Source: a virus. From it: a stretch of 27,941 nt of DNA. Shown here piece by piece: positions 2,121-19,189 of the stretch. The position numbers and the translations under genes were made by a program. The notes beneath the pieces were generated by a model that searched no databases, was not told the origin of the DNA, and saw only the letters and a program-made list of their open reading frames with translations. How positions within the stretch are numbered: position 1 is the stretch's first letter; every line of letters begins with the position of its first letter. Location: positions 1 through 27,941 of the IMG/VR virus record IMGVR_UViG_3300043427_003710; one strand, written 5' to 3'.

Positions 2121-2143
2121 CGGGAACCTAGGTGTGTACACAC
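2121..2143 (+). promoter_or_regulatory. Late start-associated motif copy 1, with a GTGTGTACACAC palindrome
   Basis: CGGGAACCTAGGTGTGTAC lies just after the integrase terminator, and its CTAGG core ends 20 nt before the ATG at 2153. It matches the element repeated before other virion genes (5219, 11582, 14911, 16046 and others). The copy also contains a perfect 12-bp palindrome, GTGTGTACACAC, at 2132-2143. I read it as a promoter, possibly with an operator; no -35 box is apparent. Confidence 0.6.
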
Positions 2144-2304: not shown

Positions 2305-2324
2305 ACGGGAAAACTAGGGTAACG
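2305..2324 (+). promoter_or_regulatory. Late start-associated motif copy 2
   Basis: ACGGGAAAACTAGGGTAACG, with the CTAGG core at 2314-2318, lies 16 nt before ATG 2335. No Shine-Dalgarno separates it from the start codon. It has the same layout as the other copies. Confidence 0.62.
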
Positions 2325-2904: not shown

Positions 2905-2955
2905 CACCCAACGTGGCAAACTGCAGCCCATAAGCGCGGCCTGTAGGCTGTGACT

Positions 2956-3489
2956 ATGGCCGCAGCAAGCCCCACAAAACCCAAGCGCACCCGCACGGGC
3001 TACCTCGCAACCCCCCTCACCCGCGAGGAGCAGCGCAGCGTTGGAGCGCTGTACCGCCAACACGGAGGCCTCATCGCACTGATGGGCCGCAAGATGTGCC
3101 GCAAATACCGCTTCCTCCGCAAAGAGGACATCTACAGCAGCATCGATATCGCCTTCATCAAAACCTGCCGCGCCTGGAACCCCGCCAAAGGCACCTTCTC
3201 CACCCTCCTCACCGTTTTCTCCGAAGGCGAGATCCGCCACTTCATCCGCGACCACAACTGGGAAATCAAGGCGCCCGCGGCAGTCAGAACCATGGGCCAA
3301 CAAGCCCGCTACATGCTCCGCGACGGCAAAACCCGCTCCGAAGTCCTCCTCGCCCTCAACACCACCGAGGAAAAACTCAAGCTCGCCCTCACCGCCACCG
3401 AGTCCATCGACCACGAAATCAAAGACTTCAACCTCCACCTCTGCCCCCGCCCCACCCCGATGGAACTCCTGGAGGAAACAGGCATCTAG
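2956..3489 (+). CDS. Small sigma-70-like protein lacking region 4 (candidate late sigma factor)
   Basis: A 177-residue protein from ATG 2956; a GTG two codons earlier at 2950 is possible. Residues about 55-110 read EDIYSSIDIAFIKTCRAWNP, then a KGTFSTLLTVFSEGEIRHFIRD stretch and KAPAAVRTM. This matches sigma region 2 of the SigB/SigF type: acidic start, FxPxKGxFST, GEIRxFxRDHxW, then basic-Pro. Residues about 115-145 (GKTRSEVLLALNTTEEKLKL) resemble region 3. Only about 30 residues follow, with no region 4 helix-turn-helix, so a -35 element would not be read. Known parallels for truncated phage sigma factors include T4 gp55. The gene lies among virion genes whose upstream motifs lack -35 boxes, which suggests it directs RNA polymerase to them; this is inference. 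A degenerate motif copy (CTGTAGGCTGTGAC, 2941-2954) precedes it. Confidence 0.65.
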   Translation: MAAASPTKPKRTRTGYLATPLTREEQRSVGALYRQHGGLIALMGRKMCRKYRFLRKEDIYSSIDIAFIKTCRAWNPAKGTFSTLLTVFSEGEIRHFIRDHNWEIKAPAAVRTMGQQARYMLRDGKTRSEVLLALNTTEEKLKLALTATESIDHEIKDFNLHLCPRPTPMELLEETGI

Positions 3490-3492
3490 CAC

Positions 3493-3513
3493 GCGGGCAA
3501 ACTAGGGTATAAC
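3493..3513 (+). promoter_or_regulatory. Late start-associated motif copy 3
   Basis: Bases 3493-3513 contain GCGGGCAAACTAGGGTATAAC, split here as GCGGGCAAA-CTAGGG-TATAAC. TATAAC (3508-3513) is the best -10-like match of the set. Seventeen bases upstream is TCTAGC, unlike a -35 box. The CTAGG core ends 22 nt before ATG 3529 of the tail-tube gene, with no Shine-Dalgarno between. Confidence 0.65.
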
Positions 3514-4353: not shown

Positions 4354-4788
4354 CTACCTCGTAACCCGCCACCTCTCCGCAAACAGCTCCAGCGCCGGCA
4401 ACGCCTGGTACGTCGCATCAATCCAGTTCCTCGCAACCTGCGGAGGCTGCACCGATTCCCCAAAGCTGTTCGTGTAGCTTCCGTACCTGCCCACAGCCAC
4501 GTTCAGCGCATAAGGCGCCTGCCATGTAATAGTCATCGCGTTGTTCTGCACCTGTGGCTCCTGGCGCGACTGCAGCAGCGTCCCACTGTCCACGATGTCC
4601 CGCGGAGACCCAACCACCTCCCGACTGAACCGCCGCACTGTCTGGTTTGGCCAAAACCACTTCACACTCGTAATCTGCCGATCTGCCTCAGCCGCGTAGA
4701 TCGGTCCGAGCTGCTGCAACACCTTCTCCGTCCGAGCCAGCAGCTTCTCGGCATTCCACTCTTTCAGCTGGAGCGACACCTGTGCCAT
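4354..4788 (-). CDS. HK97 gp10-like neck / tail-completion protein (inverted)
   Basis: A 144-residue protein. Residues about 60-105 (SPRDIVDSGTLLQSRQEPQV, then MTITWQAPYALNVAVGRYG) show the pattern of HK97 gp10-like neck proteins: IVDSGxLxxS, then vxWxxPYAxxVxxG. A C-terminal NWIDATYQAL helix follows. Such proteins sit at the head-tail interface and complete the neck or tail terminator. The ATG at 4788 overlaps the stop of the 4788-5183 gene (ATGA), so the two are co-translated. Both run against the surrounding virion genes and end just short of a terminator hairpin shared with the convergent tail-tube gene. The role is inferred from motif and neighbours. Confidence 0.72.
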   Translation of the reverse strand: MAQVSLQLKEWNAEKLLARTEKVLQQLGPIYAAEADRQITSVKWFWPNQTVRRFSREVVGSPRDIVDSGTLLQSRQEPQVQNNAMTITWQAPYALNVAVGRYGSYTNSFGESVQPPQVARNWIDATYQALPALELFAERWRVTR

Positions 4789-5183
4789 CAGGTCTGCTTC
4801 CGCGACACCAACCGAATCTTCGGCCCCAGCGCCGAGGCAAGCGTACCCCCCAGCAACCCACTGGTCCCATACGGCAGCCGCGCCTCCAGCACCTCACAAT
4901 CCACAGCCCCCTGGCCCGCAAACACCAGGCTGCCAGACGTACCAGCGATCACCCGAGCATCCAACCCCCCAGCACTCGTCACATACCCCTCAAACAAAGT
5001 GGTGACCTGGTTCACCCCCGGATACACCACCTCATTGACGCTCTCGCCCTTGAGGTAGGCACTGACCACGACCGTCGTCGTGTTGGGCACCACGTTCCCC
5101 GTATCGGGGTCCACCGTGGTCCCAGCCGCCGTCACCGTGAACGTGACCGTCGCATTATCCAGTGCTGCCAGCGCAGTTGCCAC
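4788..5183 (-). CDS. Head-tail joining-type protein (inverted)
   Basis: A 131-residue protein with a GTG start at 5183 (VATALAALDNATVTFTVTAAG). It is rich in Thr, Val and Gly, with alternating beta-strand patterns (NTTTVVVSAYLKG, VTTLFEGYVTS, CEVLEARLPYG). I do not recognise a named family. Its size, beta content and ATGA coupling to the HK97 gp10-like gene suggest a head-closure or stopper-type connector. A late motif on the minus strand (5200-5218) lies 22 nt before its start, the same spacing as for + strand genes, which supports the GTG. The upstream spacer separates it divergently from the tape-measure gene. Confidence 0.65.
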   Translation of the reverse strand: MATALAALDNATVTFTVTAAGTTVDPDTGNVVPNTTTVVVSAYLKGESVNEVVYPGVNQVTTLFEGYVTSAGGLDARVIAGTSGSLVFAGQGAVDCEVLEARLPYGTSGLLGGTLASALGPKIRLVSRKQT

Positions 5184-5199
5184 AGATCGCTGGTACGCC

Positions 5200-5218
5200 T
5201 ACACACCTAGTTTTCCTC
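5200..5218 (-). promoter_or_regulatory. Late start-associated motif copy on the minus strand
   Basis: Read on the minus strand, bases 5218-5200 give GAGGAAAACTAGGTGTGTA, almost the same as the + strand copy at 2121. The CTAGG core ends 22 nt before the GTG at 5183. It faces away from the + strand copy at 5219-5237, so the two make a compact divergent pair. Its orientation follows the inverted genes, which argues that the motif is functional. Confidence 0.65.
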
Positions 5219-5237
5219 AGGCAACCTAGGGTATAGG
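5219..5237 (+). promoter_or_regulatory. Late start-associated motif before the tape-measure gene
   Basis: AGGCAACCTAGGGTATAGG has its CTAGG core ending 24 nt before GTG 5255. The -10-like TATAGG is at 5232-5237. No -35 box is visible; upstream is the AT-rich end of the divergent minus-strand copy. Confidence 0.63.
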
Positions 5238-11581: not shown

Positions 11582-11600
11582 ACGGAAACCTAGGTAAAGA
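11582..11600 (+). promoter_or_regulatory. Late start-associated motif before the 11612 gene
   Basis: ACGGAAACCTAGGTAAAGA begins a few bases after the hub gene stop. Its CTAGG core (11590-11594) ends 17 nt before ATG 11612. There is no Shine-Dalgarno between motif and start. Confidence 0.63.
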
Positions 11601-14340: not shown

Positions 14341-14924
14341 CCGCCTACCCCGGCCAATTCCACCGCGAAACCTATGGACGGGAACTGCGCTGCACCGTGC
14401 TGCGTGCGTGGCGCCAGCTCCACAAAATCCGCCGCGACCACGCCTCCCTCGCCGAACTCCCCATCGCGGCCCTCCAAGCCCTAACCGCCAACATCAACCG
14501 CGACCCCAAGAAGTCCAAGCCCTTCACCGCGCTTGACTTCGCCATGTTCCGCGAACGCGAATCCGACGACAAGGTGCTGAGCCCAGAAGTGGCAGCCACC
14601 GCACTCGCACTGCGAGCAGAGAAGAAGGACGCCCCGATCCTCCTCGCCGCCTGGGACAAGGTGCTCGCAAGCGCCACCGCAACCGCCCGCATCCCCGAGG
14701 TCCGCGCCCTCCACTCCGACGACAAACAAGTCTGGATCCTCTGCCCCACCTGGGAAGGTAAGAACGTCCGCGCCGGCCTCATCGCCGTCGGAGACCAAAT
14801 CTCCGGCCCCACCCTCCTCCGCGACGTGGATCGCCCCCTCACCACCTACACCCTCACCCTCCCAGACCGCCGCACCTTCGCCTGGCTCGAAACCGGACTC
14901 CTCATCACCGCGACGGAAATCTAG
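14277..14924 (+). CDS. T-like extension, translated as a G-T fusion by -1 frameshift
   Basis: The -1 frame from 14277 encodes 215 residues after the shift, making a 390-residue G-T fusion with 13753-14277. It reads AAAGHHRQSQ-TDWAEIFWELVAAYPGQF-HRETYGRELR, then ...LRAWRQLHKIRRDHASLAEL..., with a beta-rich C-terminus (KQVWILCPTWEG, YTLTLPDRRTFAWLETGLLI). Protein-like sequence is present well before the first usable start (GTG 14397), and overlaps the end of the zero-frame gene. This is the sign of a fusion, not of a separate gene. By analogy the T part recruits tail-tube subunits to the chaperone-coated tape measure. An independent start at GTG 14397 (175 aa) cannot be excluded. The stop TAG overlaps the next late motif. 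Confidence 0.72.
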   Translation, partial: AAAGHHRQSQTDWAEIFWELVAAYPGQFHRETYGRELRCTVLRAWRQLHKIRRDHASLAELPIAALQALTANINRDPKKSKPFTALDFAMFRERESDDKVLSPEVAATALALRAEKKDAPILLAAWDKVLASATATARIPEVRALHSDDKQVWILCPTWEGKNVRAGLIAVGDQISGPTLLRDVDRPLTTYTLTLPDRRTFAWLETGLLITATEI

Positions 14925-14947: not shown

Positions 14948-16033
14948 GTGAACGTCCTTGAACTGCGCACCGAGCTGGCATCCCTGCTCAGCGCAAGCCT
15001 CGGCACCTACACCCTGCCCAACGGCTCCACCACGCCAGCCATCGCCGTGCGCTCCAGCGGCGAGTCTCTACCCGCTGGAACGACCGTCACCGGCCTAGAA
15101 GTCGTCATAATCCGCGACCCAAACCTCACCCCAATCCCCCAGTACGCCGAACCAGGCGCCCTACGCACCTGGACCGTCTTCCTTGTCGACTGGAGCGACG
15201 CGGTCGATCTAGAACCGATCGCCGCCTACATCATCGAGGCCTACGCCGGCACCGCCGTCTCCCCGGTCGCCGTCCCTAAAGGCACTGGTCCGCAAAACCA
15301 AATGCGGATCACGATCCAGTCCAACGCAGTCCCGCCCAGCGGCTTCCCCGCCTACGACCCAGTCCGCTTCCCCACCGTCTCCGCCCTCGGCTTCACCCTC
15401 GACGCCGGCATCACTCCCACCACCGGCCAACTCACCTGGAACGTTGACGAGGGCACCCTCGAACTCGGCAAAGCCGGCGGCGTCAGCAACTACCTCGGCC
15501 AAGAGACGATGGTGCTCTGCCGCAACAACAGCAACTCCGTCACCATCCCCAAGGGCACCGCCGTCATGTTCGCTGGCACAGTCGGCGCCAGCGGCCGCCT
15601 CAAAGTCGCGCCCATGGTCAGCGACGGCACCCTGCCTGGCTACGTCTTCTTCGGTGTCACCGATCAAGCCATCGCCGGCGCCGCCGACGGCTACGTCACC
15701 ACCTTCGGCAAAATCCGCGGCATCAACACCAACGCTTATATCGACGGCGACATCCTCTGGTGCAACCCCGCCACACCCGGCGGCTTCACCAAAGTCGAAC
15801 CCCAAGCACCCAACCTGAAGCTCGCCGTCGCTGCCGTGGTACGCGCCACCAACAACGGCACCATCTTCGTCCGCTCCACCGCAGGCGCCCGCCTCCAAGA
15901 CCTCCACGATGTCGAGGCCAACGGAACCAAAGACAACGGCGACACCCTTGAGTGGGTCGCCGCCAACAACCGCTGGCAAGCCACAGATCGCCTCACCCTC
16001 CTCGAAGCCCGAGTCACCGCCCTCGAAGCCTGA
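14948..16033 (+). CDS. Tail fibre-like structural protein (361 aa)
   Basis: A 361-residue protein from GTG 14948. Residues 1-130 (MNVLELRTELASLLSASLGT, ...GLEVVIIRDPNLTPIPQYAE, ...RTWTVFLVDWSD) resemble a minor tail or attachment domain. Residues about 155-320 (TWNVDEGTLELGKAGG, QETMVLCRNNSNSVTIPKGT, VFFGVTDQAIAGAADGYVTT, GDILWCNPATPGGFTK) match a capsid/tail-fibre beta module I have seen in phage surface proteins. The end (TDRLTLLEARVTALEA) is a short heptad coiled coil, as in trimeric fibres. It probably forms a side or tail fibre. It is preceded and followed by late motifs and so appears to be its own transcription unit. Confidence 0.68.
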   Translation: MNVLELRTELASLLSASLGTYTLPNGSTTPAIAVRSSGESLPAGTTVTGLEVVIIRDPNLTPIPQYAEPGALRTWTVFLVDWSDAVDLEPIAAYIIEAYAGTAVSPVAVPKGTGPQNQMRITIQSNAVPPSGFPAYDPVRFPTVSALGFTLDAGITPTTGQLTWNVDEGTLELGKAGGVSNYLGQETMVLCRNNSNSVTIPKGTAVMFAGTVGASGRLKVAPMVSDGTLPGYVFFGVTDQAIAGAADGYVTTFGKIRGINTNAYIDGDILWCNPATPGGFTKVEPQAPNLKLAVAAVVRATNNGTIFVRSTAGARLQDLHDVEANGTKDNGDTLEWVAANNRWQATDRLTLLEARVTALEA

Positions 16034-16045
16034 GTTCACAATCCT

Positions 16046-16064
16046 TACGGAAATCTAGGTATAG
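16046..16064 (+). promoter_or_regulatory. Late start-associated motif before the lysis cassette
   Basis: TACGGAAATCTAGGTATAG lies 12 nt after the fibre gene stop. Its CTAGG core (16055-16059) ends 19 nt before GTG 16079. It would drive the lysis genes together with other late units. Confidence 0.64.
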
Positions 16065-18046: not shown

Positions 18047-18322
18047 ATGGCCCTTTCCGAGTGGTTGATCCCAAAGCCCTCACTGAGTGCCCAAGCGCAG
18101 CTACGCCACAACGTCGACACCCTGCGCCAACACGGCTCCTCCGACCCCCACGGAACAACAGAACTGGCCTGCTCCTTGATGCACCAGCTGATGCTCAAGG
18201 ACACCCTACTGCGTCAAGCCATCCACCACATCAGCGCCCTGGAACTGCAACAGCTCCTAACGGAAAGCCCCCACCGCCCTGGGCCGTGGCGCCGGCTGCT
18301 GCGGTTTCTGTGGCCTACTTAA
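18047..18322 (+). CDS. Hypothetical helical protein (91 aa), convergent with sigma
   Basis: ATG 18047 to TAA at 18320-18322 gives 91 residues: MALSEWLIPKPSLSAQAQLR, then HNVDTLRQHGSSDPHGTTEL, ACSLMHQLMLKDTLLRQAIH and HISALELQQLLTESPHRP. It has strong amphipathic helices and protein-like composition, so I prefer it to other frames here. Its 3' end overlaps the sigma gene by 66 bases on the opposite strand. It is the only convincing + strand gene downstream of the endolysin. A GCTAGTCT at 18013-18020 could be a promoter element, but the evidence is weak. Function unknown. Confidence 0.55.
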   Translation: MALSEWLIPKPSLSAQAQLRHNVDTLRQHGSSDPHGTTELACSLMHQLMLKDTLLRQAIHHISALELQQLLTESPHRPGPWRRLLRFLWPT

Positions 18323-19189
18323 GTAAAACCGCATCTTCCGCTGCGCCTGATCCACCACCTGACGCACCCGCTCCCGACTAATCCCGTTGTCCCGCCCAAT
18401 ATCAACGTACGTCTCCTCCGGAGCGCCACCCAACCCCCACCGCCGCTCCACGAAACTCCGCTCCTTCGGCGTCAACACCCCCAAAGCCACCTCTACCGCA
18501 TCCACCGTCTCCTGCATCTGGGCCTTATCCATCGACTCCACACCGTCAGGATCCATAGGATCCGAAATCAAATCCAGAATTGAACTCCCGTCCCCACCCA
18601 GCGTCAGCACATCCAACGACGACACATACTTCCCCCGATTCAAAAACATCCGCACCTCCTCCACTGGAACGTCAAACGCCTTCGCCATCTCCTCAGTCGT
18701 CGGCATCCGCTGCAGCTCCTGACTGAGCTCCCTCACCCGACGATTCCAGTTGGTGCCCATATCCGCAATCTTGCCCGGCAGCCGGATATACCGCTCCTTA
18801 GCCGTGATGGCACGCGCCATCGACTGCCTGATCCACCAGTACGCATAGGTCGAAAACTTGTACCCCCGCCCTGGATCGAACCTGCGCACCGCCACCATCA
18901 ACCCAATATTCCCCTCCTGCACCAGGTCCATCAAATCCATGTGCTCCAGCACGCCCACGTACTTCTTCGCCGCCGAAACCACCAGCCGCAGATTCGACTT
19001 CACAAACCTGTCCAGGGCCCGCTGCCCAATCCTCACCTCCTTCTTCTCCTGGAACGTCAGCTCCCGGCCAGCCTCCTCCAGCTCAACCATTCGCCGCACC
19101 TTGCGTCCCAGGTCAATCTCCTGCTCCGGCGTCAGCAGCGGCACCGTCCCGATGCTGTCCAGATACGTGCTGATCCCTGATCGTGCCAT
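18257..19189 (-). CDS. Full-length sigma-70 family RNA polymerase sigma factor
   Basis: A 310-residue protein resembling cyanobacterial group-2 sigma factors. Region 1.2 is at about 3-35 (STYLDSIGTVPLLTPEQEID). Region 2 is at about 60-130 (RFVKSNLRLVVSAAKKYVGV, DLVQEGNIGLMVAVRRFDPG, YKFSTYAYWWIRQSMARAIT). Region 3 is at about 135-215. Region 4 is at about 235-290 (LTPKERSFVERRWGLGG and the helix-turn-helix YVDIGRDNGISRERVRQVVD). It lacks the long region 1.1 of primary sigma factors and ends in a Pro/Arg-rich tail. AAGGA just before ATG 19189 supports the start. Being in the replication-side cluster, it probably reprogrammes host RNA polymerase early or in mid infection. Its stop lies inside the convergent 18047 gene. 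Confidence 0.93.
   Translation of the reverse strand: MARSGISTYLDSIGTVPLLTPEQEIDLGRKVRRMVELEEAGRELTFQEKKEVRIGQRALDRFVKSNLRLVVSAAKKYVGVLEHMDLMDLVQEGNIGLMVAVRRFDPGRGYKFSTYAYWWIRQSMARAITAKERYIRLPGKIADMGTNWNRRVRELSQELQRMPTTEEMAKAFDVPVEEVRMFLNRGKYVSSLDVLTLGGDGSSILDLISDPMDPDGVESMDKAQMQETVDAVEVALGVLTPKERSFVERRWGLGGAPEETYVDIGRDNGISRERVRQVVDQAQRKMRFYLSRPQKPQQPAPRPRAVGAFR

Follow-up and report, generated by a model that had tools for sequence, protein, structure and literature searches.

Phage T4 encodes a sigma factor, gp55, that consists of region 2 and a short helical extension, has no region 4, and reads late promoters reduced to a -10 element (TATAAATA), a sequence unlike the phage motif described below. 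It makes use of two partners, the co-activator gp33, which binds the flap, and the sliding clamp gp45 (PMC7892883). The gp36 protein of phage phiEco32 likewise shows no homology to region 4, and its single-element middle and late promoters place the transcription start 6-8 bp downstream (PMC8948821). In cyanobacteria, SigF promoters carry two elements, GGTAA at -12 and TAGGC at -32 (PMC2758279). A group-3 sigma factor of the cyanophage P-SS2 was described in 2009 as likely recognizing a particular regulon, and its promoter was not given (PMC2784084).

Compared with these systems, the protein encoded by ORF 2956..3489(+) of the window (the whole 27,941-nucleotide stretch analyzed here, positions 1 to 27,941 of IMG/VR virus record IMGVR_UViG_3300043427_003710) is a sigma factor of the SigB/SigF type that comprises regions 2 and 3 and lacks region 4. 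The reading frame is open throughout, with the 177 residues counted from the ATG and a further in-frame GTG at 2950. General libraries gave region 2 a weak score (Pfam Sigma70_r2, with E = 3e-4 and 21 bits at a cut-off of 24 bits, which two relatives exceeded), whereas profiles made for phages or for the subfamily recognized it clearly. The sigma factor profile PHROG 351 aligned to residues 31-156 at 2e-12, and the NCBIfam SigB/SigF/SigG profile (TIGR02980, SigBFG) was the top match at 1.3e-6, as it was for two relatives, with scores far below the curated full-length cut-off. Against solved structures, the family profile matched S. aureus SigB (8x6g, residues 31-150, 2.7e-6) and a further sigma factor (1l0o, 0.0045). 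In two AlphaFold models (pLDDT 71 and 74), residues 23-100 fold into a region-2 bundle and residues 108-147 into a region 3 of three helices; a short helix (168-174) follows at the C-terminus, and neither model contains a region-4 HTH. The presence of region 3 is indicated both by this three-helix domain and by the profile alignment to SigB, which reaches residue 150. The best structural neighbors found by Foldseek were sigma factors, with modest E-values (no better than 0.003 in the PDB or than 3.2e-4 among viral models), as expected for a two-domain helical model of middling confidence. Taken together, the profile and fold searches pointed to the SigB/SigF/sigma28 type. T4 gp55 was not among the fold matches, which is still compatible with a shared fold. 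Both the fold and the sequence are therefore those of sigma-70 superfamily region 2, and the proposals of the first-pass annotation (a SigB/SigF-type region 2, a region 3-like part, an end before region 4, and a sigma rather than a non-sigma fold) were borne out.

Truncation does not account for the missing region 4, because the viral relatives stop at the same conserved tail (..CPRPTPW..LE). These relatives, collected as 43 loci through a search with the sigma protein plus further loci through a search with the tail gene, encode proteins of about equal length, and all those translated end, like the window protein, some 25-30 residues past region 3 in a common pattern (H..F.LH.CPRPTPW..LE). 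This tail lies outside the sigma domains and could be a docking site. Wherever a relative locus covers this part, the tail-tube gene comes immediately after the sigma gene, and a search for the sigma gene in about 85,000 bacterial genomes did not find it. The features of the locus are collected in Table 1.

Table 1. Features of the window and parts of the region-4-less sigma protein (aa, residue numbers of the protein)
Feature	Position	Strand	Basis or context
Region-4-less SigF/SigB-type sigma factor, 177 aa	2956..3489	+	Profiles, AlphaFold models, relatives' translations
Sigma protein, N-terminal tail	aa 1-22		
Sigma protein, region 2	aa 23-100		
Sigma protein, region 3	aa 108-147		
Sigma protein, conserved C-terminal tail	aa 163-174		Ends CPRPTPMELLEE
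Putative promoter of the sigma gene	2931..2955	+	TAGGCTG just before the start codon, TAnnCT -10-type hexamer
Full-length RpoD-like sigma, cyanobacterial group 1/2 type	18257..19189	-	Regions 1.2, 2, 3, 4; start of replication block
Late motif GGGAACCTAG	2122..2131	+	C of CTAG 25 nt before ATG of small basic ORF (about 2153-2293)
Late motif GGAAAACTAG	2308..2317	+	21 nt before ATG 2335, head-tail adaptor Ad1
Late motif GGCAAACTAG(GGTATA)	3496..3505	+	27 nt before ATG 3529, tail tube-like protein
Late motif GGAAAACTAG	5207..5216	-	Before start 5183 of inverted gene 4788-5183
Late motif GGCAACCTAG(GGTATA)	5220..5229	+	29 nt before GTG 5255, tape-measure-like protein
Late motif GGAAACCTAG	11584..11593	+	22 nt before ATG 11612
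Late motif GGAAATCTAG	14915..14924	+	27 nt before GTG 14948
Late motif GGAAATCTAG	16049..16058	+	24 nt before GTG 16079

The sigma gene is accompanied by a recurrent motif, GGNAAHCTAGG(n2)WA, which was obtained by unbiased discovery and whose orientation follows the gene on either strand. In a de novo EM search of 216 upstream regions from six records, the motif ranked top (LLR 280 vs 37 for shuffled sequences). In 395 kb of sequence from relatives, 101 copies of the strict form GGNAAHCTAG were counted, compared with 6.6 +/- 4.7 occurrences (maximum 31) for 300 column-permuted motifs, and the motif is thus not a product of chance. The logo was built from 155 non-redundant sites, which were thinned for relatedness and are not fully independent. 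By gene calls made with a custom script, 100 of the 117 sites of the relaxed form GGNAAHYTAG lie 7-40 nt before a predicted gene start, and the distances are bimodal, falling at 7-10 nt or at 19-40 nt (peak at 22) and hardly ever between; most motifs stand 19-36 nt from the start codon. A signal for translation initiation, such as a ribosome binding or start-associated sequence, would also sit just before start codons, and yet this explanation is scarcely credible for a motif whose distance to the start varies from 7 to 40 nt in two separate modes.

Eight sites were found in the window, seven on the plus strand and one on the minus strand; the sites at 5207..5216(-) and 5220..5229(+) stand back to back, 3 bp apart. 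Across the relatives, minus-strand copies precede inverted connector genes, and 23 divergent pairs were counted with 0-17 bp between the motifs, some of them adjoining at 0-10 bp. The divergent copies occupy the stretch that separates the tape-measure gene from the inverted connector genes (e.g., L006 5001/5002 and L026 7684/7695). With "late" defined by gene content as virion and lysis genes, the motif precedes 52 of 161 genes in the late block vs 2 of 61 in the replication block (Fisher P = 1e-6), and about two thirds of late-block genes are without it, for which operons or other promoters are offered as explanations. A few sites are oddly placed, among them two convergent pairs (L049 15543-15574 and L053 9461-9490), in which two face-to-face copies upstream of a gene form an inverted repeat, possibly a hairpin or an operator. 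Between the integrase and head-tail adaptor genes of the window, a small, very basic ORF of 46 aa (about 2153-2293, +) has a late motif of its own. The GGGTAT seen in the window was also considered as a SigB-type -10 (GGGTAT), and this reading was dropped because the bases following CTAG vary in relatives.

The spacing of the motif was further examined for a transcription start. An A occurs 8 nt past the C of CTAG at 86 of 141 non-leaderless sites against a background of 21% (P = 3.5e-25), and two positions further on T is underrepresented. Certain genes have their start codon at this very place, 7-8 nt past the C of CTAG; these include relatives of the window gene at 14948 (L050/L051, L057, and L058), where the arrangement suggests leaderless late mRNAs. 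The bimodal spacing together with the A enrichment would place the transcription start such that the invariant A and T of the motif fall at -11 and -7. With the enriched A taken as +1, the motif would span -14 to -5 and its GG, at -14/-13, would occupy the place of an extended -10. In the canonical sigma70 -10 element, the bases flipped out are likewise the A at -11 and the T at -7.

EM searches upstream of the motif did not recover a -35 element that was both strong and positioned, nor was TAGGC or TTGACA enriched there at a fixed distance. What emerged was a dispersed GCTG-type signal (position sd about 11), which is likely coding sequence, and weak base preferences at -9 (and -1), counted upstream of the motif, slightly above the shuffled null. 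The bipartite promoter with a -32/-35 element, a trait of SigB/SigF/SigG, was accordingly not found here, in agreement with the earlier statement that the late motif shows no -35 box. The motif core GGNAA matches the GGTAA that cyanobacterial SigF reads at -12, whereas the TAGGC at -32 is missing in the phage; likewise, cyanobacterial SigF has region 4 and the window sigma does not. The phage motif that keeps -12 and loses -32 thereby parallels a protein that keeps regions 2-3 and loses region 4.

Split sigma factors exist, as exemplified by RsoA/SigO, and the window protein could in principle be one half of a two-part sigma, giving regions 2 and 3 while another phage or host protein on the beta flap gives a region-4-like function or activation. 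The use of the flap-binding co-activator gp33 by the region-4-less gp55 (PMC7892883) and the conserved tail as a docking site would suit such an arrangement. We nonetheless consider it unlikely, as no positioned DNA element lies upstream of the motif for a partner to read and the divergent pairs 0-3 bp apart leave almost no private upstream DNA, an argument that covers DNA-reading partners only; a non-exhaustive search identified no partner gene.

The link between the motif and the sigma gene was examined in isolates, namely those nearest by terminase plus other cyanosiphoviruses. Distant homologues of the window sigma are encoded by P-SS2 (ORF003) and S-CRES1 (gp20), which score 44.2 and 34.9 bits with the family profile (A1), and by S-CBS2 (gp77, 73% identical to S-CRES1 gp20 and 47% to P-SS2 ORF003); they have been described as SigF or type III sigma factors. 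The P-SS2 and S-CRES1 proteins, both of which were scanned, resemble the window sigma in having no Pfam region 4. The group-3 sigmas of these cyanosiphoviruses differ from it in their greater length (206-244 aa) and other C-termini, and their genes follow the terminase, whereas that of the window lies between Ad1 and the tail tube. Their motif is related to that of the window family but looser, and the relaxed fixed pattern GGNANNCTA was therefore used for cross-phage counts. This pattern precedes 23 of 100 genes in S-CBS2, 21 of 86 in S-CRES1, and 13 of 85 in P-SS2, compared with 0.8-0.9 in shuffled sequence, which amounts to a 16- to 28-fold enrichment in these three cultured phages. In KBS-S-2A, MED4-184, S-H1, S-CBS1, S-CBS3, and S-CBS4 (the last over its first 50 kb), it precedes no gene. 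All six of these controls are without a group-3 sigma, and KBS-S-2A, S-CBS1, and S-CBS3 encode an RpoD-like sigma; since the motif precedes no gene in these three, it follows the group-3 sigma. De novo searches recovered GGNANNCTA-type motifs in S-CBS2, S-CRES1, and P-SS2, stayed close to the shuffled level in KBS-S-2A and MED4-184, and gave a motif above shuffled with an unrelated pattern in S-H1. The co-occurrence draws on one uncultured clade, the S-CBS2/S-CRES pair, and P-SS2 as independent lineages, set against the six controls, and no relative carrying the motif without the gene was found. The pairing of gene and motif on which the first-pass annotation staked its reading thus holds across these phages.

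These comparisons bear on two further explanations. The motif might be the promoter of another sigma, either the phage RpoD-like one, which the window does encode, or the host's own SigF, given that cyanobacterial SigF reads GGTAA at -12. Both versions are improbable, as the three controls with an RpoD-like and no group-3 sigma have no motif-preceded genes, and as the TAGGC at -32 that host SigF promoters have in addition shows no enrichment here. Equally improbable is a reading of the motif as a stoperator-like operator for a repressor or regulator, or as a recombination or processing site, with the sigma-like protein unrelated to it. Other temperate phages do have oriented operators in intergenic regions, and the integrase encoded in the window makes a repressor conceivable. 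The tight bimodal spacing and the A 8 nt downstream, however, fit a promoter rather than an operator, the relaxed motif recurs in three other cyanosiphoviruses with a group-3 sigma and precedes no gene in the six that have none, and the motif core equals the SigF -12 box.

The sigma gene itself does not appear to be read from the late motif, which was found upstream of it in none of 24 non-redundant families, the window included. In most of these families, TAnnCTG lies a few bases before the start codon; the EM search for this region was confined to its intergenic part, as the conserved end of the Ad1 gene otherwise dominates. For early genes in general, EM on 35 of them gave no promoter motif clearly above shuffled. 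Some early-gene upstream regions of S-CRES1 (L105) and S-CBS2 (L101/L110) carry GGTAnACTG or TAnACTG, possibly a host-type -10 with a sequence partly shared with the late motif. The full-length RpoD-like sigma of the window is probably an earlier-acting sigma; such a gene is also present in five longer relatives and in KBS-S-2A, S-CBS1, and S-CBS3. From this cyanobacterial RpoD-type sigma and the nearest terminases, the hosts are probably cyanobacteria. A cascade from host-type promoters to the region-4-less sigma and on to the late genes would fit these observations, with late timing suggested by gene content.

Overall, the explanation that we favor, and regard as very probable, is that a SigF-type late sigma directs host RNA polymerase to -10-only promoters in a manner analogous, not homologous, to gp55 and gp36. 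A SigF-type (group 3) sigma shortened to regions 2 and 3 would be made early or in mid infection, probably from a host-type TAnnCT -10 promoter rather than from its own motif, and would displace the host sigma on the cyanobacterial core RNA polymerase. Within GGNAAHCTAG, its region 2 would recognize A-11, C-8, and T-7 as a melted -10 element, and its region 3 would recognize an extended -10 in the GG at -14/-13. The start, in most cases an A, would fall about 8 nt past the C of CTAG, and the mRNAs would be leaderless or have leaders of roughly 12-28 nt. With region 4 gone, no -35 box would be needed, and promoters could be packed back to back. A bolder form of this proposal, which we put forward only tentatively, is that the protein acts as a stand-alone region 2-3 late sigma with core alone and no activator, that cyanosiphoviruses of both marine and fresh waters use the system, and that the tail replaces region 4 in polymerase docking.

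Regarding precedent, the first-pass annotation had likened the system to T4 gp55 while calling the sequence a different type, and had suggested a new phage late-transcription system. The likeness is well founded, as both are phage-encoded and lack region 4 and a -35 element, and so is the distinction, since gp55 shows no detectable sequence homology (-0.2 bits with the A1 profile). The novelty is supported in part. phiEco32 gp36, which the A1 family profile does not match and whose consensus (tAATGTAtA) differs from the motif here, is a second precedent beside gp55 (PMC8948821), and the system extends beyond the window phage, as P-SS2, S-CBS2, and S-CRES1 carry the longer homologues. Our literature search, in papers accessible without subscription, found nothing on this motif, or on the absent region 4, in these phages, and the sigma and motif pair looks like an undescribed late-gene switch.

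The protein appears to be the third phage sigma without region 4 that is paired with a single-element promoter, after T4 gp55 and phiEco32 gp36. It has a recognizable ancestor in SigF, of whose promoter the -12 element is kept; if the proposal is true, region 4 and the -32 element were lost together. As exact start sites are predicted in cultured phages, the proposal is directly testable. The second sigma of cyanosiphoviruses has been known since 2009, in P-SS2, without its promoter, and the pair described here would, if true, amount to a candidate for the complete late-transcription system of siphoviruses that infect cyanobacteria.
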